A stretch of DNA of 64,000 nucleotides, from NCBI RefSeq assembly GCF_900167535.1, contig NZ_FUYE01000001.1:1-64000 (forward strand). Reading direction: 5' to 3'. Below, piece by piece: positions 2,427 through 47,732 of this stretch (its first letter is position 1; each line of letters begins with the position of its first letter). Source of the DNA: Prosthecobacter debontii. Its GTDB lineage: Bacteria > Verrucomicrobiota > Verrucomicrobiia > Verrucomicrobiales > Verrucomicrobiaceae. Under the pieces are notes generated by a model. The model did not search any database. It was not told where the DNA came from and saw only the letters and a program-made list of their open reading frames with translations. The position numbers and the translations under genes are program-made.

Positions 2427-3473
2427 TCAGTTAGCGCGGCGGAGCAGCATGGGGGTATCACCGCTGGCTGTAATCGAGCCGATTTGATTGGCGGCTATGA
2501 CGTCGAAGGGAGAAGCCAGGGACAGGGCAGGACCTGCCAGCACACCATTGCGACGCACACGGAAGCGGATGAGGCCTTTGGTGATTTCGGCGCTGGCTTC
2601 GTCGATGGTGAAAACCACGGGAGTCATGTTACCGATCTGGAGGGTCGGATTCACTGTCAGGCGGCCGTCATCGGTCACGACCATGCGGTTGAACTGACCG
2701 CCGAACTGAAGATTCCAAGGTGTGCTGGTAGCGTTGCCACCCATGCGCAGAACTTCCGTGACGGTGAAAGGTTCGATGGTCAGATCCACACGTTTCAGGA
2801 GAGTGGTGACAGTCGTTCCTGGGGTGGTTGGCAGCTTCACGGATTCCTGAATGGAAAACAGCGGCTGGCGGGTGATTGAGGTCAGAGTGGACTCCGTGAC
2901 GAAAGTCAGATTCAGGGGCAGAGCGGTGCGGGTGCTGAGCACGCGGGAGATGAAGTGAGCCTGACCCGCCGGGATGACGGTGTTGGCAGGCAGGAGTTCT
3001 GTGCTGCCTGTTTTGACACTGCCAATGTCCCACTGGGCGGTATTGATGACGCTAATGCCTGGGGATCTCTTGCTCAGAGACACCACAGAGAAGCTGGACT
3101 GCACGCGGCTGCGAAGCTGGCTGCCGCTCATGAGCGTTGTCGGGCCGGTGATCGCCAGATTCGGGATGGTGAAGCGGATCAAGGTGGGTGTGACGTAGAT
3201 CACCGGGGCTGACACAGGCAGGCCGATGGTGGTGCGGAATTGAATGTGGGTAACGGTCAGAGGCTCTGCAATGACGGCTCCACCGTTGGTGATGCGATCT
3301 GAAGCAAGGTTGGCCAGGACGGATTCGCCCACGGGTGCCGAAGCAGGGACGAAGGAGGTGATGACCGGGATGCCGGTGGGCGATACGGTGCTCTGAGCCG
3401 ATAGAGATTGGCTGAGACCCACGGCGAGCATGAGCAGGGTGTAGAACTTCAGAATGGAGGATGTTGTTTTCAT
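2427..3473 (-). CDS. Secreted protein with N-terminal TIG/IPT-like domain
   Basis: A 348-residue protein with a clear Sec signal peptide (MKTTSSILKFYTLLMLAVGL, cleavage likely after ...LSA near residue 26). The mature part opens with PVITSFVPASAPVGESV, the typical first strand of a TIG/IPT immunoglobulin-like domain (about 35-135). The remaining ~200 residues are rich in T, V and S and predict mostly beta strand. No catalytic motif is seen. It is likely an exported or surface protein of unknown function, conserved perhaps only within the phylum. It is monocistronic, with its own terminator. Confidence 0.65.
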   Translation of the reverse strand: MKTTSSILKFYTLLMLAVGLSQSLSAQSTVSPTGIPVITSFVPASAPVGESVLANLASDRITNGGAVIAEPLTVTHIQFRTTIGLPVSAPVIYVTPTLIRFTIPNLAITGPTTLMSGSQLRSRVQSSFSVVSLSKRSPGISVINTAQWDIGSVKTGSTELLPANTVIPAGQAHFISRVLSTRTALPLNLTFVTESTLTSITRQPLFSIQESVKLPTTPGTTVTTLLKRVDLTIEPFTVTEVLRMGGNATSTPWNLQFGGQFNRMVVTDDGRLTVNPTLQIGNMTPVVFTIDEASAEITKGLIRFRVRRNGVLAGPALSLASPFDVIAANQIGSITASGDTPMLLRRAN

Positions 3474-3603
3474 AATCGTGCGCTATTTGAGTGAAGAGGG
3501 GCTCATTCATCGAGCGAGCCTTGGTTCACGGGGCAGATGCAAGGCCGCCCACGAACTTGCGCAGATTCTGAAAATAATTTTTTCATAGCCTCATGAGAGG
3601 AGC

Positions 3604-3627
3604 GCGGATGCGCTTATCCGCCTTTTT
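3604..3627 (+). terminator. Orphan terminator-like hairpin on the plus strand
   Basis: GCGGAT and ATCCGC (3604-3609 and 3616-3621) form a 6-bp stem with a GCGCTT loop, followed by CTTTTT. The orientation is plus, but both flanking genes are on the minus strand, so no gene obviously needs it. It may end antisense transcription or a short RNA. Confidence 0.35.
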
Positions 3628-3716
3628 CACATAGAGCAGAGCCACGAATATCGAAGATGCGGTCAGATCCTCCCTGTTCATCTACGGGATTCGCGTTCAC
3701 GCTGCCTTGCCAGAAC

Positions 3717-4148
3717 TCAGTCCTGGGGTGTTGTGCCCTCTACCAGAATGCCACGATAGACCGCGCCTTTGACCCGATGCTCCCGGGCTTTTTGGTAGGC
3801 AGGGCTGTGATACCAGGCCCGGGCCGCCTCCATGCTGGGAAACTCAGCAATCACGACTCCCTCTGTGCTTTCGCCTTCCCACACTTCATGCGGTCCATAT
3901 CCGGAGAGCACCTTGATGGGGTGCCCTTCCAGGGTGGCCGGTGCCTCTTTCCAGTAGGCTTCCAGCTCGGCCCGGTCGAGAGTCTTCTCACGGGTGAAGA
4001 CGATATAAGCAGGCTTCGTGGTAGGGGGCTTCTGCCCTGGCGGCTGTGCTGAGGATGCTTCAGCTCGAGATACTTTCGTGGATGGATCGCAAGCGACCAG
4101 TGTCATGGCGGCGAAGATGGTGCCTGCGATGAGGAAGGGTTGTTTCAT
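3717..4148 (-). CDS. DUF1330-domain lipoprotein
   Basis: A 143-residue protein starting MKQPFLIAGTIFAAM with a lipobox LVAC at about residues 17-20, so it is probably a lipid-anchored envelope protein. After a linker rich in S, P and K (DPSTKVSRAEASS...) comes a DUF1330 domain: YIVFTREKTLDRAELEAYWKEA, then HEVWEGESTEGVVIAEFPSMEAARAWYHSPAYQKAREHR. This is a ferredoxin-like fold of unknown activity. Most DUF1330 proteins are cytosolic, so the lipoprotein signal is noteworthy. A longer frame reaches 4211 but lacks the lipoprotein start. It is the last gene of a minus-strand run with a VOC protein and an SDR. Confidence 0.72.
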   Translation of the reverse strand: MKQPFLIAGTIFAAMTLVACDPSTKVSRAEASSAQPPGQKPPTTKPAYIVFTREKTLDRAELEAYWKEAPATLEGHPIKVLSGYGPHEVWEGESTEGVVIAEFPSMEAARAWYHSPAYQKAREHRVKGAVYRGILVEGTTPQD

Positions 4149-4189
4149 CACTATCAATGCGTTCAGGGTTCTACAGGGTCCCGGTGGAG

Positions 4190-4573
4190 TTATGCCACAG
4201 GCTCGGTGCACACGGCTTCAATGTTGCAACCATCTGGGTCAAAGACATAGGCGGAGTAGTAGTCAGGCCCGTGGTCGGGAGTCAGTTCCGGCTTCCCGTT
4301 ATCCCGACCTCCTGCAGCAAGGCCAGCCGCGTAAAATTCCTCCACCTGCACCCGAGTTGAGGCCGTGAAGGCAATGTGGCACCGGGTCACTTGCGTCGCG
4401 CCCTCTTGGATAAAGAAATCTAGCCCGCCCTTGATGCCAAAACCAACGCCCTTTGTCCCTGTGCTGGACGTGTACTCCGGGGTGGCCGAGTATCCGAGCG
4501 GTGCCAGCGCCTTCTGATAGAATTCCAGACTGGCGGACAGATTGCTGACGGTGATGATGATATGGTCAATCAT
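4190..4573 (-). CDS. VOC-family (glyoxalase/dioxygenase-like) protein
   Basis: A 127-residue single-module protein of the vicinal oxygen chelate superfamily. It begins with MIDHIIITVSNLSASLEFYQKAL (first beta-alpha unit with a potential metal His at position 4) and ends with the typical AYVFDPDGCNIEAVC strand carrying a glutamate. Metal-dependent reactions in this fold include glutathione-dependent isomerisation and ring cleavage; the substrate cannot be named here. The N-terminus at 4573 fits the family exactly. It lies 46 bp downstream of the SDR gene in the same orientation, suggesting a small metabolic or detoxification operon. Confidence 0.78.
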   Translation of the reverse strand: MIDHIIITVSNLSASLEFYQKALAPLGYSATPEYTSSTGTKGVGFGIKGGLDFFIQEGATQVTRCHIAFTASTRVQVEEFYAAGLAAGGRDNGKPELTPDHGPDYYSAYVFDPDGCNIEAVCTEPVA

Positions 4574-4619
4574 AAATAAAGTGTTTTATGTTAATAGTTT
4601 GGCTGTTGTGCTTTCTTGG

Positions 4620-5429
4620 TTAGGCGGTCGGGACCGTGCCGCCATCAATGACATATTCCGTCCCGGTAATGGAGGTCGCCCGAGGCGATACGAGAAACGC
4701 AATCAGGTCGGCCACCTCCGCTGGCTTCGCCGGACGCCCCACGGGGATACCGCCCAGGCCATTCATGACGATCTGCTTTGCTCCTTCGTAGTCCGTGCCC
4801 GAACTCTCTGCGATGCGTTGGAGAAAGGGGTCGGCTGCTTCCGTCTCTACCCATCCCGGCGACACGCGCACCACGCGAATGCCCTTGGGAGTGACTTCCT
4901 TCGAAAGGCTCTTGCTGTAGGTGGAGAGCGCCGCCTTGGCCGCTGCATAGGCAGTCGTGGATTCCGGCAGTGGGAGCTCGTGCTGGATGGATGTCACATG
5001 CACGATGACACCTGAGCCTTGCTCAATCATCGCCGGAAGCAGCGCCCGGTCTATGCGGACAGCACTCATCAGGTTCAGGTTGAGTTCGCTTTGCCAGACA
5101 TCGTCATCGAGCTTAACGAAGCCACCGGCCGGTGCGTTTGAGCCGCCTACGACATTGATAATGATATCCACTCCTGCGAGAAGCCGATGCACCTCGCCCG
5201 TGACCATGGCACACCCCTCGGCAGTGGCCACATCCGCGGCAACGTAGTGCACACCCGGCACCGGATTTCGCGGTGCCTCACGTGCGGTGGTGACAATCCG
5301 AGCCCCCAGACCATGCAGAGTTTCCAAAACGGCGGCACCAATGCCCTTGGTCCCCCCAGTGACAAGGACACGGCGGCCATGGAGATGAAGGTCAAAACTG
5401 AATCTAGGATTGTTATTAGTATTGTTCAT
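4620..5429 (-). CDS. Short-chain dehydrogenase/reductase (SDR)
   Basis: A 269-residue classical SDR. The cofactor-binding motif TGGTKGIG is at residues 24-31, an NVVGG variant of the NNAG motif is near 92-96, and the catalytic set is Ser147, Tyr161 and Lys165 in S-x13-YAAAK. The C-terminal GGTVPTA and the [11 protein letters not shown] strand are standard. It oxidises or reduces a carbonyl/hydroxyl substrate with NAD(P); the substrate is unknown. It heads a minus-strand run with the VOC and DUF1330 genes and diverges from an AraC-type regulator gene across 134 bp, the usual layout for a regulator and its target. Confidence 0.88.
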
Positions 5430-42392: not shown

Positions 42393-42496
42393 TCTCGGTA
42401 GGCTAGAAATGCGGCGTTCGTCTGGCAAGCCTGCTCGCAGGAATTTCTCTGTCACGCTCTTGCGTGTTGGCTGGAGTGAGCGCATATCTGCGCACC

Positions 42497-43417
42497 ATGC
42501 TCGACATCACAGGCAAGAAAATCGCCGTCCTTTTTGGCGGTCCGGGTAATGAACGCGAAGTGTCTAAAAAGACGGCGGAAAGCGTCGTCGCGGCTCTGAA
42601 AACGAAAGGAGCGGAGGTGGTGGAGGTGGATGTTCACGGGCCTGATTTCGTCGTGCCTGAGGGTGTCTTCATCGCCATGAACCTCATTCACGGCACCTTT
42701 GGTGAAGACGGACAGATTCAGGCGATTTTGGAAGAGCGCGGTATCCCCTATACCGGAGCTGGTGTGCAGAGCAGCCGCATTGCTTTCGACAAAGCTTTGA
42801 GCAAAGAGAAATTCATCGCCGCAGGGGTGCCTACGCCGCGCTCGCAGAACTACAAACTCGACGGCAGTGAGCCTCTGAGCATCACCATTCCTCTCGTTTC
42901 CAAGCCGCCTCGTGAAGGATCAAGCGTGGGCGTAAACATCTGCCGCACGGGAGAAGAGTGGGCCAAGGGGATCGAAGAAGCGCTTAAGTACGGAACGACC
43001 ACGTTGGTGGAGGAATTCATCGACGGAAAGGAACTGACGGTGGGCGTTTTGGGCGATCAAGTCCTGCCGATCATTCACATCGAGCCCGTCGAGGGCTTTT
43101 ACGATATCAACAACAAGTATCCATGGATGACGGGCACGGGCAAAACGCTCTACCATTGTCCGGCTGAACTGGATGAGGCCACCACCAAGCGGGTGCAGGA
43201 TGCAGCACTTGCAGCTTTCCAGTCCTGCGGCACCGAGGTTTATGGCCGTGTGGATGTGATGCTGAGAAACGACGGCGAACCCTTCGTTTTGGAGATCAAT
43301 ACGATTCCAGGCATGACGAGTAGCAGTCTCTTGCCCAAAGCAGCGGCGGCGGTGGGCATCGATTTCCCAGACCTGTGTGTGCGCATCATTGAGTTGTCTC
43401 TGGCGGCTCGCCCCTAA
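42497..43417 (+). CDS. ddl: D-alanine--D-alanine ligase
   Basis: A 306-residue ATP-grasp ligase that forms the D-Ala-D-Ala dipeptide of peptidoglycan precursors. N-terminal KKIAVLFGGPGNEREVSKKTA holds the E-x-x-S substrate motif, IHGTFGEDGQIQAILEERGIPYTGAGVQSSRIAFDKALSKE the central strand, and VSKPPREGSSVGV the ATP-grasp lysine region. FVLEINTIPGMTSSSLLPKAA is the metal-binding loop. ATG 42497 gives the family N-terminus. It heads a cell-wall/division cluster followed by ftsQ, ftsA and ftsZ, although a hairpin with a T-run at 43423-43469 separates it from ftsQ. Confidence 0.93.
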   Translation: MLDITGKKIAVLFGGPGNEREVSKKTAESVVAALKTKGAEVVEVDVHGPDFVVPEGVFIAMNLIHGTFGEDGQIQAILEERGIPYTGAGVQSSRIAFDKALSKEKFIAAGVPTPRSQNYKLDGSEPLSITIPLVSKPPREGSSVGVNICRTGEEWAKGIEEALKYGTTTLVEEFIDGKELTVGVLGDQVLPIIHIEPVEGFYDINNKYPWMTGTGKTLYHCPAELDEATTKRVQDAALAAFQSCGTEVYGRVDVMLRNDGEPFVLEINTIPGMTSSSLLPKAAAAVGIDFPDLCVRIIELSLAARP

Positions 43418-43561: not shown

Positions 43562-44551
43562 ATGGTCACTCCCAAAAATGCTTCTGCTGCGGCTTCGAAG
43601 CCGAAACGCCCTGCTAAAAAGCGGCGGGTTCAGGCTGCTGTGACGACCGTGGAAGTGTGCTTGAATGTGGACTCCCCCAAGATCCGCGAGATGGAAAAAA
43701 AAGCCGCCCAGCGTCGTGGTTTTAAATGGGCTTTGGGGCTGATCATCATCATCTGCTTTTTAGCTTTGCTGAAAGTGACGGTGCAGGAGGCCATTCTGAA
43801 AAATCCCCAGTTTGCTTTGCGGGATGTGGCAGTTCAGACCACCGGTCCTTTGACCGTCGAAAAGATCGTCCGAGCCACCCAACTGACTCAGGGAGAAAAT
43901 CTGCTGACGATCAACATGCGAGCCCTGCACACGCGGCTGCGCCAGCTTCCTCCGGTGAAGGACGTGTCGATCGAGCGGGATTTTGATGCGGGTCTGATGA
44001 CCCTTCGCATCAGCCAACGCCTACCTGTCGCTTGGCTGGATTGTGCCAAGCTGGGCATGATCGCAGGTAGGCCAGAGGTGGGTTATCTGTTGGATCATGA
44101 TGCGGTGCCTTTTCCGTGTGATGTGGTCTCCGAGGCGCTCGCCGGTCTTCCGGTGATTCGTTACCCAGGACTAGCCCAGAAAACGGCCGGGGTGGCGCTT
44201 CAGGATTTGCAACTGACAGCCGCACTGACGCTGTTGAAGGAACTCGAATCCCGCTTTGAAAACGGTCAGCCCCAGGTTCGCATCATCGAGATTCAGACGC
44301 CGTATTCCATGGTGGCATCCTTCACGGACAAATCAGAAATCACTTTCGGCGTGGATGATTTGGATGTGCAACTCGCCCGCTTGGATCGTGTGAGGATCGA
44401 AGCTCGGCAGCGTGGCTGGGAGATCGAAAGCTTGAATCTTCTCGCCCGTCAAAACGTCCCAATCACTTTTCGCCAACCCCCGGACCTCGCTGGCCTTCAG
44501 CCCGAGCCGACCGTGCCCGTTTCCCTCCCCAAAACCCCCTCTGTTCGTTGA
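43562..44551 (+). CDS. ftsQ: Cell-division protein FtsQ-like
   Basis: A 329-residue bitopic membrane protein. The cytoplasmic N-terminus is basic and Lys-rich (KPKRPAKKRRVQ), one transmembrane helix lies at ~57-75 (WALGLIIIICFLALLKV), and a POTRA-like domain (FALRDVAVQTTGPLTVEKIVRATQLTQGENLLTINMRALHTRLRQLPPVKDVSIER) is followed by the FtsQ beta domain. This is the usual architecture of the divisome protein linking FtsB/FtsL to early ring proteins. Sequence is divergent, but position directly before ftsA and the domain order make the call strong. Its stop is 6 bp before ftsA. Confidence 0.85.
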   Translation: MVTPKNASAAASKPKRPAKKRRVQAAVTTVEVCLNVDSPKIREMEKKAAQRRGFKWALGLIIIICFLALLKVTVQEAILKNPQFALRDVAVQTTGPLTVEKIVRATQLTQGENLLTINMRALHTRLRQLPPVKDVSIERDFDAGLMTLRISQRLPVAWLDCAKLGMIAGRPEVGYLLDHDAVPFPCDVVSEALAGLPVIRYPGLAQKTAGVALQDLQLTAALTLLKELESRFENGQPQVRIIEIQTPYSMVASFTDKSEITFGVDDLDVQLARLDRVRIEARQRGWEIESLNLLARQNVPITFRQPPDLAGLQPEPTVPVSLPKTPSVR

Positions 44552-44557
44552 CCTACT

Positions 44558-45772
44558 ATGGCGAAGACCACCATCTATGCAGGCCTGGAAATCGGCACCA
44601 GCAAGATCTGCGTCGTCGTCGGCGAGGCAAAGCGTGATGGCACCATCAAGATTCTGGGTGTCGGCACGGCCCCTTCCCGCGGCGTTCGCAAAGGCGAAAT
44701 CGTGGACTTTGATACAGTCCATACCTGTCTGAATGATGCCCTCGTGCGGGCTGAGGATTATAGCGATGTGATGATCCGCAATGTCTTCCTGGGCGTTAGT
44801 GGTGGACACATCGAGAGCGTGAATAACCGGGGATGTTACCGGCTGCCAGCCGATCAATCGGAAATCACCGAAGATGATGTGGAAGAGGTGAAGGAGATTG
44901 CTCGGAATGTGCCTGCGCCTCAGGACAGCATCTCCATGCACAGCGTGACCCGCCAATACATCGTGGATGGAGTCGAGGCCGTGCGACAGCCGATCGGCCG
45001 CCAAGCCCGCCAACTGGAGGCGGACTATCACATTGTCCATGGCAGTCTGCCGCGGATTCAGAATTCGATCAAATGCGTCAAAGAAGTGCCTTTGGAAGTC
45101 GAAGACGTGGTCTTCAACGGTATCGCCGCAGCCCAAGTCGTCTTGAATCGCGAAGCGAAGCGGGAAGGGGCTTTGATGATCGATTTAGGCGGAGGCACGG
45201 CTGACTTTGTGCTGTATGAAGATGGCATGCTCACCATCTCAGGCTGCGTGCCACTGGGCGGAGATCACATTAGCCAAGATATTGCCATGGCTCTCCAGAT
45301 CCCCCACGGCAGAGCTGAGGCCCTGAAAATCACTGAAGGAAGCTGCGTGTATGAAGACGTCCCGCCTGGGGACATGGTGCGTGTGGAGGACGACACGGGC
45401 TATGTGCTGGGCGAGGTGGAGCGCGCTTTCCTGAATGAGGTGATCTACCTGCGAGTGAGAGAAATCTTGGAGCAGGTTCACCAGAGGTGTGAGGGGCACA
45501 TCGGGCGTCTTGCAGCAGGAGTTTATCTCACAGGTGGCTCTAGCCTGCTAAAAGGTATTGACGTAGTGGCCCGGGAAGTGTTTGGAATGAAGGTAACGCG
45601 GGCCGGGTCAGCTCCCGTCAGTGGCGTCACTGCCACTTTCGAGAATCCTCAATTCTCCGCGCCCATCGGTCTCATTCGCTATGCGCAGATCTTGGATCAA
45701 GAAAAGCCATTCCTCTCCCCGCTTAAACGGCTGGCGCATCGGATGGCTGACCTCTTGTCCGTGGCCATCTGA
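44558..45772 (+). CDS. ftsA: Cell-division protein FtsA
   Basis: A 404-residue actin-like ATPase that tethers the Z-ring to the membrane. Phosphate-1 is YAGLEIGTSKICVVVGE (~6-22), phosphate-2 is LMIDLGGGTADFVLYEDG (~207-224), and the adenosine region is GVYLTGGSSLLKGID (~320-334). The 1C domain lies between 85 and 165. The C-terminus (LSPLKRLAHRMADLLSVAI) is a probable amphipathic membrane-binding helix, as in other FtsA. It starts 6 bp after ftsQ and ends 61 bp before ftsZ. Confidence 0.92.
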   Translation: MAKTTIYAGLEIGTSKICVVVGEAKRDGTIKILGVGTAPSRGVRKGEIVDFDTVHTCLNDALVRAEDYSDVMIRNVFLGVSGGHIESVNNRGCYRLPADQSEITEDDVEEVKEIARNVPAPQDSISMHSVTRQYIVDGVEAVRQPIGRQARQLEADYHIVHGSLPRIQNSIKCVKEVPLEVEDVVFNGIAAAQVVLNREAKREGALMIDLGGGTADFVLYEDGMLTISGCVPLGGDHISQDIAMALQIPHGRAEALKITEGSCVYEDVPPGDMVRVEDDTGYVLGEVERAFLNEVIYLRVREILEQVHQRCEGHIGRLAAGVYLTGGSSLLKGIDVVAREVFGMKVTRAGSAPVSGVTATFENPQFSAPIGLIRYAQILDQEKPFLSPLKRLAHRMADLLSVAI

Positions 45773-45833: not shown

Positions 45834-47732
45834 ATGGTTGAATACGATCGCCAATCGCTGCGAGAAGAGCCCAATAAACCCGCCCTCCGCACCTGCATCG
45901 TCGGCATCGGCGGCGCGGGTAGCAATGTTCTGGATCGCATCACCCTGGACCGCACGGTGGATGCGCAATTGGTGTGCATGCATACGGATATTCGTGTGCT
46001 CGGTCATGCCATGGCACCCACGAAGATTCAGCTCGGGGCTGAACTCATGCGGGGCGTCGGTGCCGGTGGTGATCCCGACCTTGGGCGTGAAGCGGCCATG
46101 TACTCCCGGGATGAAATCCGGCAGGCCATTGAAGGGCACGACATCGTCTTCATCTGCGCCGGTCTTGGCGGAGGAACCGGGTCGGGTGCCGCGCCCGTGG
46201 TCGCAGAAATTGCCAAATCCACCAATTCTCTGGTTTATATCACGGCGACCATGCCTTTCAGCTTTGAAGGTCGCCGCCGTCTCAATCAGGCTGAGGAAGC
46301 TTTGCAGCAGCTTCAAAAGCGTGCGGATGCGCTCATCCTCTTTGAAAATAATCGCATGGGGGAACTGACCCTGCCGAAGGATGGTATTCAGAAAGCCTTT
46401 GCTCAGGCGGATCAACTGATCGCTCAGAGCTTGCGCGCTGTTTCCACCATCGTCAGCATGCCAGGTCTCGTGAAGCTAGGTCTGGATGACCTCACCAGTG
46501 CTCTTAGTACCTCGAATGGTCGTTGCTTGTTCGGCTTCGGTGAGGCCCGTGGTCAGAACCGTGGCACGGAAGCTCTCAAGCGTGCACTCAAAAGTCCGCT
46601 TATCGATCAAGGCCGTCTCCTGCACCAGACTAAGACCCTGCTTGTGCACATCGCTGGTGGGGAGACGCTCACGCTCATGGAGGTGGATGCCATCATGAAG
46701 CAATTGGGCCGCCATGTGCCAGACCATACGCACATCCTGTTCGGGGTGGCTGTGGACGCTAAACTGGGAGAAACCATTTCCGTCACACTCATCAGTTCCT
46801 TGGGCCTCGCTCAGCTGAACACCATTGCTGCGGCTGCGCCGCCTGCCAACATGCTGCCACTGACGGATCGCCCCATGCCCAGCATGGCCGATGCTGTCGC
46901 AGCCCCACCGGCTCCTGCGCCTGCACCGAAAGTTCGTGCCCCGGCTTCTCGCCCGACACCCCCTGTCGCTGCAGCTCCAGCCATGTCCCCGGCTGCTCCT
47001 GCCACATCGCCAAGCCCAGTTCGCGCCGGTCCTCCGCCTTTCGAAGACTCCATGGACATGTTGTTCAAGGAGGATGAAATCATCTCTCAATCTTCGCTGA
47101 CCCATTTGGAATCTCAGGGCAGTTATAAGGCCGAAGCGCCTGAGCTTTTCTCTGAAAGTTTCGCTCCTGCTCCCGCTGCTTCGGTTTCGGCCCCCGTGGC
47201 TCCTGCCTCGGTGGCAGCTTACACGACTGCTCCAGCCCACAACTCACCTTTCCCACCTGCGCCTGCGGCTGAGATGGTGCCTGAGCAGCCTCCGGTCGCC
47301 TACGAGGAAGAGGAGTATTACGAAGAAGAGACGCAAGTGGTGAGCAGCACCTATGAGCCGGAGCCTGAACCTCCTGCTCCCGAGCCAGCCCCAGCCCCGG
47401 CTCCTGTTGTGCGCGATCGTCCGCGCATCGAAGACTTTATCCAGGCTGCACCGCCTCCGCCTCCGCAGCCCCAGCAGCCCGTTTCTCGTCCTCCGACATC
47501 GCCTTTGGCTGCGGTCGTGGCACGTACCAATCTTCCGCCGGAAGACATGGCTTACGCACCACCGCCTAACATGGTGATGCCGAAGAAGCTGGCAGGTGAA
47601 GCTCAATCGGATCTGGGTTTCTCCAACCAAGATCGTGGGCGTTTCAAAGACACGGAGCCCGCGTTGGCCTCTGGGGGTGAAGACCTGGATGTGCCGACAT
47701 GGATGCGCCTGAAACGGAAGCTGAAGCGCTAG
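45834..47732 (+). CDS. ftsZ: Divergent, extended cell-division protein FtsZ
   Basis: A 632-residue tubulin-like GTPase; typical FtsZ is 350-420. The GTPase fold spans ~18-330: IVGIGGAGSNVLD (T1), MHTDIRVL (T2), GAGGDPDLGREAA (T3), FICAGLGGGTGSGAAP (T4 signature) and NNRMGEL (T6 region). In the T7 synergy loop, where NxDxxD is expected, residues 214-219 read KLGLDD, so the conserved Asn and first Asp are missing and only the last Asp is kept. Residues ~340-615 are an A/P/E-rich linker of about 280 residues. The final DVPTWMRLKRKLKR resembles a conserved C-terminal peptide with a basic tail. Located directly after ftsA. Confidence 0.93.
   Translation: MVEYDRQSLREEPNKPALRTCIVGIGGAGSNVLDRITLDRTVDAQLVCMHTDIRVLGHAMAPTKIQLGAELMRGVGAGGDPDLGREAAMYSRDEIRQAIEGHDIVFICAGLGGGTGSGAAPVVAEIAKSTNSLVYITATMPFSFEGRRRLNQAEEALQQLQKRADALILFENNRMGELTLPKDGIQKAFAQADQLIAQSLRAVSTIVSMPGLVKLGLDDLTSALSTSNGRCLFGFGEARGQNRGTEALKRALKSPLIDQGRLLHQTKTLLVHIAGGETLTLMEVDAIMKQLGRHVPDHTHILFGVAVDAKLGETISVTLISSLGLAQLNTIAAAAPPANMLPLTDRPMPSMADAVAAPPAPAPAPKVRAPASRPTPPVAAAPAMSPAAPATSPSPVRAGPPPFEDSMDMLFKEDEIISQSSLTHLESQGSYKAEAPELFSESFAPAPAASVSAPVAPASVAAYTTAPAHNSPFPPAPAAEMVPEQPPVAYEEEEYYEEETQVVSSTYEPEPEPPAPEPAPAPAPVVRDRPRIEDFIQAAPPPPPQPQQPVSRPPTSPLAAVVARTNLPPEDMAYAPPPNMVMPKKLAGEAQSDLGFSNQDRGRFKDTEPALASGGEDLDVPTWMRLKRKLKR

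Follow-up and report, generated by a model that had tools for sequence, protein, structure and literature searches.

An altered T7 loop in the FtsZ of a Prosthecobacter-like bacterium and its relatives in the Verrucomicrobiota

Catalysis by FtsZ is held to depend on a conserved core made up of the Asn and the two Asp residues of the T7 loop, and the treadmilling of FtsZ is driven by GTP hydrolysis. An ftsZ gene in which two of these three residues are replaced raises the question of whether it is a damaged gene or encodes a working protein with a different site. Such a gene lies at positions 45834-47732 of the + strand in the window, by which we mean the whole 64,000-nucleotide stretch of DNA analysed here. 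We give a probability of about one half to the reading that this sole ftsZ of a Prosthecobacter-like bacterium encodes a functional cell-division FtsZ whose composite GTPase site was rebuilt long ago.

The gene, its product and the T7 loop

The reading frame starts with ATG and encodes 632 residues, the length given in the initial annotation. It comes directly after ddl (D-Ala-D-Ala ligase, 42464-43417; Pfam Dala_Dala_lig_C, 3.2e-47), ftsQ (43562-44551; POTRA_1, 2.8e-07) and ftsA (44558-45772; FtsA, 3.8e-27, and SHS2_FTSA, 9e-20), all on the + strand, and is the ftsZ of the dcw cluster. The product contains both FtsZ domains, Tubulin (PF00091, 1.8e-37) and FtsZ_C (PF12327, 1e-18), and the T4 tubulin signature GGGTGSG (residues 112-118; 46167-46187, + strand) is intact in the translation, as had been noted, and invariant in the six sequences of alignment A1. 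BtubA/B were set apart here as Tubulin-type proteins that lack FtsZ_C and carry GGGSGSG, the signature of two Btub-type frames of the same genome; the window protein has FtsZ_C and GGGTGSG. An Ala/Pro/Glu-rich linker, assigned from composition and boundaries, spans about 280-290 residues (46815-47681, + strand), close to the roughly 280 first proposed, and residues 331-611 (281 residues) include 62 Pro, 53 Ala and 24 Glu. Long linkers are usual in the group, ranging from 52 to 595 residues with a median of 232 in the 89 rows with Gly at 209 (E. coli numbering) and a recognizable C-terminal motif. The conserved C-terminal peptide DLDVPTWMRLKRKLKR (47682-47729, + strand) is also present in this FtsZ encoded behind ftsQ and ftsA; the peptide is conserved in alignment A1, and among the 30 loci of the same genus, L008-L037, the motif LDVPTW lies close to the C-terminus in 28 (L032 is incomplete and L036 was left out).

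An AlphaFold2 model of residues 1-333, calculated with 67 relatives from named records, has the ordinary FtsZ fold (pLDDT 92.4, pTM 0.90), with helix H8 beginning at residue 217. FtsZ chains head the structural comparison, the best match being 2rhj (B. subtilis FtsZ; Z 41.4, rmsd 2.5, 311 aligned residues), and Z ranges from 39.0 to 41.4 over the 50 rows compared; the best Foldseek matches are likewise FtsZ chains. These comparisons cover the fold and the aligned ranges. By its domains, fold, synteny and C-terminal peptide the frame at 45834-47732 is an FtsZ orthologue, but one without the canonical NxDxxD GTPase motif.

The protein scores 271.5 bits against the NCBIfam equivalog TIGR00065, below the curated cut-off of 295.2 bits, which 19 of the 193 genomes sampled from the phylum reach, compared with 13 of the 14 named controls. 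The shortfall concerns a score threshold and is no biological feature, yet it shows that the protein is divergent. Very divergent FtsZ sequences were also seen in family f12 (G061, G068, G076, G083, G094, G098, G103, G107, G112 and G117), with TIGR00065 values of 2e-6 to 5e-22; G134, which belongs to the same family, has no TIGR00065 match.

The T7 loop reads PGLVKLGLDD (residues 210-219; 46461-46490, + strand). In a phmmer comparison with FtsZ from the PDB, PGLVKLGLDDLT pairs gap-free with PGLINLDFADVK, and phmmer, anchored blastp and MAFFT all set the loop opposite the canonical PGLxNxDFAD with no gaps, placing K214, G216, D218 and D219 at E. coli N207, D209, A211 and D212 (alignment positions are given in E. 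coli numbering below). All 18 mapped positions (E. coli residues 20-212) show the same offset of +7 between the E. coli and window numbering, which fixes the register of the loop. Neither NxDxxD nor Nx[DE]xx[DE] occurs anywhere in the protein, and N228 is the only Asn within residues 190-235, so no shift of the loop restores the motif. A misread register is thereby ruled out, and the idea that the true catalytic Asn and Asp lie elsewhere in the loop retains a negligible probability. The initial annotation, which had two of the three T7 residues lost and the last Asp retained, was therefore right for Asn207 (K214), Asp209 (G216) and Asp212 (D219), and the shifted alignment it had named as a possible refutation was sought and proved impossible. 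The loop has also gained an Asp, D218, at the position of A211.

On the surface opposite the neighboring subunit's T7 loop, alignment mapping of the T2/H2 segment H50-T-D52-I-R54 (E. coli N43 to Q47; 45981-45995, + strand) gives His for N43, a retained D45 and Arg for Q47, and R149 (R142 in E. coli, R143 in S. aureus; 46278-46280, + strand) is kept; two of the D45/Q47/R142 trio are thus present as D52 and R149, with R54 in place of Q47. In summary, the window protein shares with canonical FtsZ (E. coli, B. subtilis, S. aureus) the GTPase and C-terminal domains, the fold, the T4 motif (GGGTGSG or GGGTGTG), the equivalents of D45, E138 and R142, the gene position after ftsA and the C-terminal peptide, but differs in having K-x-G-x-D-D for N-x-D-x-A-D in T7, R54 for Q47, H50 for N43 and a linker of about 290 residues.

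Conservation of the altered loop in genus, order and phylum

Among the 36 genus-level rows, the window included, K207, G209, D211 and D212 are invariant (36/36), while two, four, two and two codons, respectively, are used at these positions; core identity in this set has a minimum of 77% and a median of 83%. Such constancy of residues together with variation of codons argues that purifying selection acts on the new loop, and the invariance rules out sequencing error or local decay. D209 is absent from all 90 rows fetched for the order (89 Gly, one Glu), whether or not btub genes are present, and from all seven named Chthoniobacterales loci, each of which has Gly. Because the same loss runs throughout the order, including a species with a reportedly essential ftsZ, an ancient rebuilding of the enzyme seems a better account than damage to one gene. 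The initial annotation had missed that the change is not peculiar to this gene: the loss itself stands, but that of D209 is order-wide and old.

For the phylum we used an alignment of 309 rows, 297 from Verrucomicrobiota (296 usable) and 12 others, which over-samples the window's genus, holds some named loci that duplicate other genomes and includes a few second copies (e.g., row L238). Row L238 is a second ftsZ-like gene (L340:3766-5769, genome G308) with the T7 sequence KVGKQA, in which both Asp are lost; its product lacks the usual C-terminal peptide and has a Glyco_tran_28_C (MurG-type) domain at its end (24.9 bits against a cut-off of 22). The genome and phylum samples are draws rather than censuses, and one scan comprised the best 80 of 436 rows. 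NxDxxD is retained in only 27 of the 296 usable Verrucomicrobiota rows as opposed to all 12 of the others, a small control made up of E. coli and 11 loci, in which titles of metagenome-assembled genomes may be wrong and one locus, L321, carries no title beyond “uncultured bacterium” (its sister in the tree is a Yanofskybacteria row). In the set below 80% identity the motif is found in 22 of 180 Verrucomicrobiota rows.

Taken singly, D209 is present in 96, D212 in 205 and N207 in 102 of the 296 rows, and at least one Asp or Glu stands at 209 or 212 in 291. Gly occupies position 209 in 162 rows; these carry Asp or Glu at 211 in 145 cases and at 212 in 160, Asp at 45 in 160, Arg at 142 in 158, and a basic side chain (K/R/H) at position 207 or 47 in 156. 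The 27 canonical rows of the phylum include one with an acid at 211 and seven with a basic residue at 47. A separate observation concerns G043, a 96% complete genome, whose sole ftsZ match (L339, frame 2983-5097) overlaps and follows ftsA: its T7 loop reads R-L-E-L-A-Q, with Glu for D209 and Gln for D212, and its T4 motif GGGTASG.

Sub-patterns in the named loci show that a basic residue at 207 does not go hand in hand with one at 47: the 12 loci titled Akkermansiaceae have N207 in 10 and R47 in 12, and the seven titled Chthoniobacterales have R207 in four, Q47 in four and both in three. The case for covariation of these two positions is accordingly weak. Titles in this area should be read with some caution, as L276, L288 and L290, titled Akkermansia muciniphila, have FtsZ cores 47-51% identical to that of the window and may be mislabelled; the Akkermansia sp. 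rows L317 and L327 are far below these at 35-37%, and L290 stands apart from both in the tree. The Opitutaceae FtsZ sequences (L315, L330 and L331, together with L314, titled Opitutae) belong to the same phylum as the window and also have an incomplete T7 motif, yet their change is the opposite one: N207 and D209 are kept and D212 is replaced by Thr, in all three Opitutales loci and in the one titled Opitutae (4/4). A second phmmer run confirmed the T7 register of this group for L315.

The tree was inferred without the T2 and T7 columns from 191 rows below 80% identity with 230 or more aligned letters (190 of the rows are usable, and 10 come from outside the phylum), and is a single-gene tree from a quick search. 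The window FtsZ falls within a clade of 80 rows (support 99), to which the Verrucomicrobiales and Chthoniobacterales rows belong and in which D209 is wholly absent (68 Gly, seven Thr, two Ala and one each of Ser, Asn and Glu); four further Gly209 rows lie outside it (L129, L130, L143 and L195). At least 12 changes are needed on the tree for the loss of D209 and 16 for that of D212. Within the 190 rows, 107 are without D209, 38 without Asp or Glu at 212, and five without both. A model of dependent rates for the two losses was preferred (LR 16.99, p = 0.0019); on a 229-row tree the LR was 18.16, and a 245-row alignment had 16 rows dropped, two for short cores and 14 as duplicates. None of 192 data sets simulated under independence reached the observed LR, which was obtained with three optimizer starts as against one for the simulations, the root being fixed with both Asp. 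The raw count of five double losses was matched or undercut in 16 of the 192 simulations, and a sign test on independent pairs found no significance for the avoidance (median p 0.25). The losses of D209 and D212 thus seem to avoid each other on the tree, though the simpler tests are weak. A coupling between the loss of D209 and the gain of an acid at 211 gave p = 0.063 under dependent rates and nothing in seven independent pairs; as a tree-wide rule this exchange is weak, resting largely on one clade.

A possible rewired GTPase site

In filaments of S. aureus FtsZ, the T7 Asp equivalent to D209 swings and positions the catalytic water, the equivalent of D212 and R143 form the surroundings of that water, and the side chain of the T7 Asn touches a potassium ion that is locked in by Gln48 of the partner subunit; N208L, D210N and D213N each suppress assembly and Q48A reduces GTPase activity (PMC8936486). 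The E. coli mutants D212G and Q47K divide only with suppressor mutations (PMC5405962), and a D212G chimera forms static rings in vitro with an almost tenfold lower GTPase activity (PMC7320174). These laboratory mutants resemble the window protein in that T7 or its partner residue is changed; they are single changes, whereas the window has natural replacements at 207, 209 and 47 in the only ftsZ of its genome.

A close natural comparison is Verrucomicrobium spinosum, a species with symmetric binary fission in which ftsA and ftsZ, the latter together with its C-terminal extension, are reportedly essential, and in which targeted mutagenesis has been described (PMC12283558). Genome G316 is almost certainly that of V. 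spinosum, its FtsZ measuring 673 residues from the first Met, the published length (PMC1845146). As in the window, N207 is lost, D209 is replaced by Gly, D212 is kept, R47 and H43 are present and the C-terminal extension is long; the T7 loop differs in having R207/G209/A211/D212, with R207 and A211 for K207 and D211. Since this V. spinosum-type FtsZ has Ala at 211, D211 is not obligatory.

Our best reading is a working FtsZ with a rewired and probably slow composite GTPase site. The protein would still bind GTP and polymerize head to tail, and hydrolysis, probably slow, would proceed with D219 (D212) facing R149 (R142) of the neighbor. D218, at the start of helix H8, may act as a second carboxylate that partly makes up for the missing swinging Asp (D209), and K214, R54 or both may place a positive charge where the canonical T7 loop holds a potassium ion; Lys or Arg can substitute for this ion in other enzymes. 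Such a protein is predicted to have a low, potassium-insensitive GTPase activity, slow or absent treadmilling and a normal Z-ring function. The constancy of the loop in the genus, the one remaining T7 carboxylate, the retained R142 and the essentiality in V. spinosum together favor a rebuilt, still-used site over decay, and to that extent the initial annotation, which had offered a different catalytic arrangement among its interpretations, is partly supported. A point against this best reading is that, by analogy with the S. aureus substitutions that suppress assembly, the window FtsZ could be assembly-poor.

A broader extension of this reading, which we offer tentatively, is that two large lineages of the Verrucomicrobiota independently turned FtsZ from a two-Asp, potassium-dependent GTPase into a one-Asp GTPase by opposite routes: the Verrucomicrobiales and Chthoniobacterales would have lost D209, in most cases with the gain of an acid at 211 and, again in most, of a basic residue at the potassium site, and the Opitutaceae would have lost D212. 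In both lineages the hydrolysis behind FtsZ-based division would then be slow or independent of potassium, and treadmilling slight or absent. The group is natural, large and partly culturable, its ftsZ is usually single and is reported to be essential in V. spinosum, and the core of catalysis is replaced. It provides a direct test of how far bacterial division depends on hydrolysis and treadmilling and of whether one carboxylate is enough; FtsZ inhibitors and models based on the canonical site may fail to transfer to this phylum, which includes Akkermansia.

A rather unlikely alternative is that the protein is a hydrolysis-dead or nearly dead scaffold, which binds GTP and forms static filaments, and that division in the order needs no treadmilling driven by hydrolysis. 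The rings still formed by the E. coli D212G chimera (PMC7320174) lend it plausibility, as does the absence here of the very Asp whose swing puts the catalytic water in place (PMC8936486). A dead site fits poorly with the Asp or Glu found at 209 or 212 in nearly every row of the phylum (291/296) and with the Arg at 142 in 158 of the 162 Gly209 rows; moreover, the avoidance between loss of D209 and loss of D212 looks as though a single catalytic carboxylate remained necessary.

Bacterial tubulins and further FtsZ-like proteins

We regard as improbable a second alternative, that selection was relaxed in a fast-evolving lineage and the loop drifted as FtsZ came to matter less, for example because BtubA/B took over its work. 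Accelerated evolution of ftsZ in Prosthecobacter has been described (PMC2474590, citing a 2007 paper) and the FtsZ of V. spinosum is highly divergent (PMC1845146); PMC9871819 is a further record of divergence or acceleration in verrucomicrobial ftsZ, and the earlier remark that divergent FtsZ had been described for Verrucomicrobia agrees with PMC1845146 and PMC12283558. The window's own genome carries four BtubA/B-type genes, arranged as two BtubA/BtubB-like pairs (L001-L004) on contig C9 (13234-15407 and 234049-236141); two btub operons have been described for Prosthecobacter debontii (PMC3232192), and the frames at two of the four loci have the signature GGGSGSG. Drift is, however, hard to reconcile with a loop that is invariant in all 36 genus-level rows in the face of synonymous codon change, or with the reported essentiality of ftsZ in V. 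spinosum (PMC12283558). The distribution of the tubulins is also at odds with it, as the loss of D209 is order-wide and btub is not: among 26 genomes of the same family, the window's own included, 15 have a btub pair and 11 have none, although G030, one of the 11, has a broken fragment that scores under the cut-off. Each of the 11 has an ftsZ with Gly at 209 (rows L015, L016, L023, L033, L097, L212, L215, L228, L233, L234 and L235). Btub thus does not explain the loop, and BtubA/B were ruled out as the cause of its alteration.

The same data make it very improbable that the protein works in a heteropolymer in which another FtsZ or a tubulin subunit provides a normal T7 loop. Four tubulin genes in the same genome would supply candidates, but BtubA and BtubB heterodimerize with each other (PMC3232192), the pair is missing from those 11 family genomes with the same Gly209, and a search of the assembly (6.29 Mb, 99.6% complete) with PF00091 yielded no second ftsZ: its matches were this ftsZ, the four tubulins on contig C9 (177-199 bits) and one fragment below the cut-off. 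A hidden second ftsZ in the assembly is ruled out by this search, which the initial annotation had proposed, and its statement that the window holds no second ftsZ extends to the whole assembly.

Our literature search found no report of the loss of T7 residues in Verrucomicrobiota, and no assay of GTPase activity or polymerization for a protein of this clade, within a coverage that excludes the likeliest sources of such a report (Pilhofer 2007, 2008). These papers lie outside it, and eight divergent positions are marked in Figure 1 of PMC1845146, so some of the present findings may already be in print.

Several other proteins with a Tubulin/FtsZ GTPase domain were encountered in the sampled genomes. 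In G309, the frame L333:93-2027 joins such a domain (PF00091, 110.7 bits) to an Xre-type helix-turn-helix (HTH_31, 39.3 bits), and GTPase-domain proteins of about 600-650 residues like that of L333 occur in G053 (contig C54), G044 (C23), G050 (C326) and G315 (C374). G314, a genome from another family of the order, has two Tubulin-domain matches on contig C108 (41525-44775), in frames of 431 and 452 residues that perhaps form a btub-like pair.
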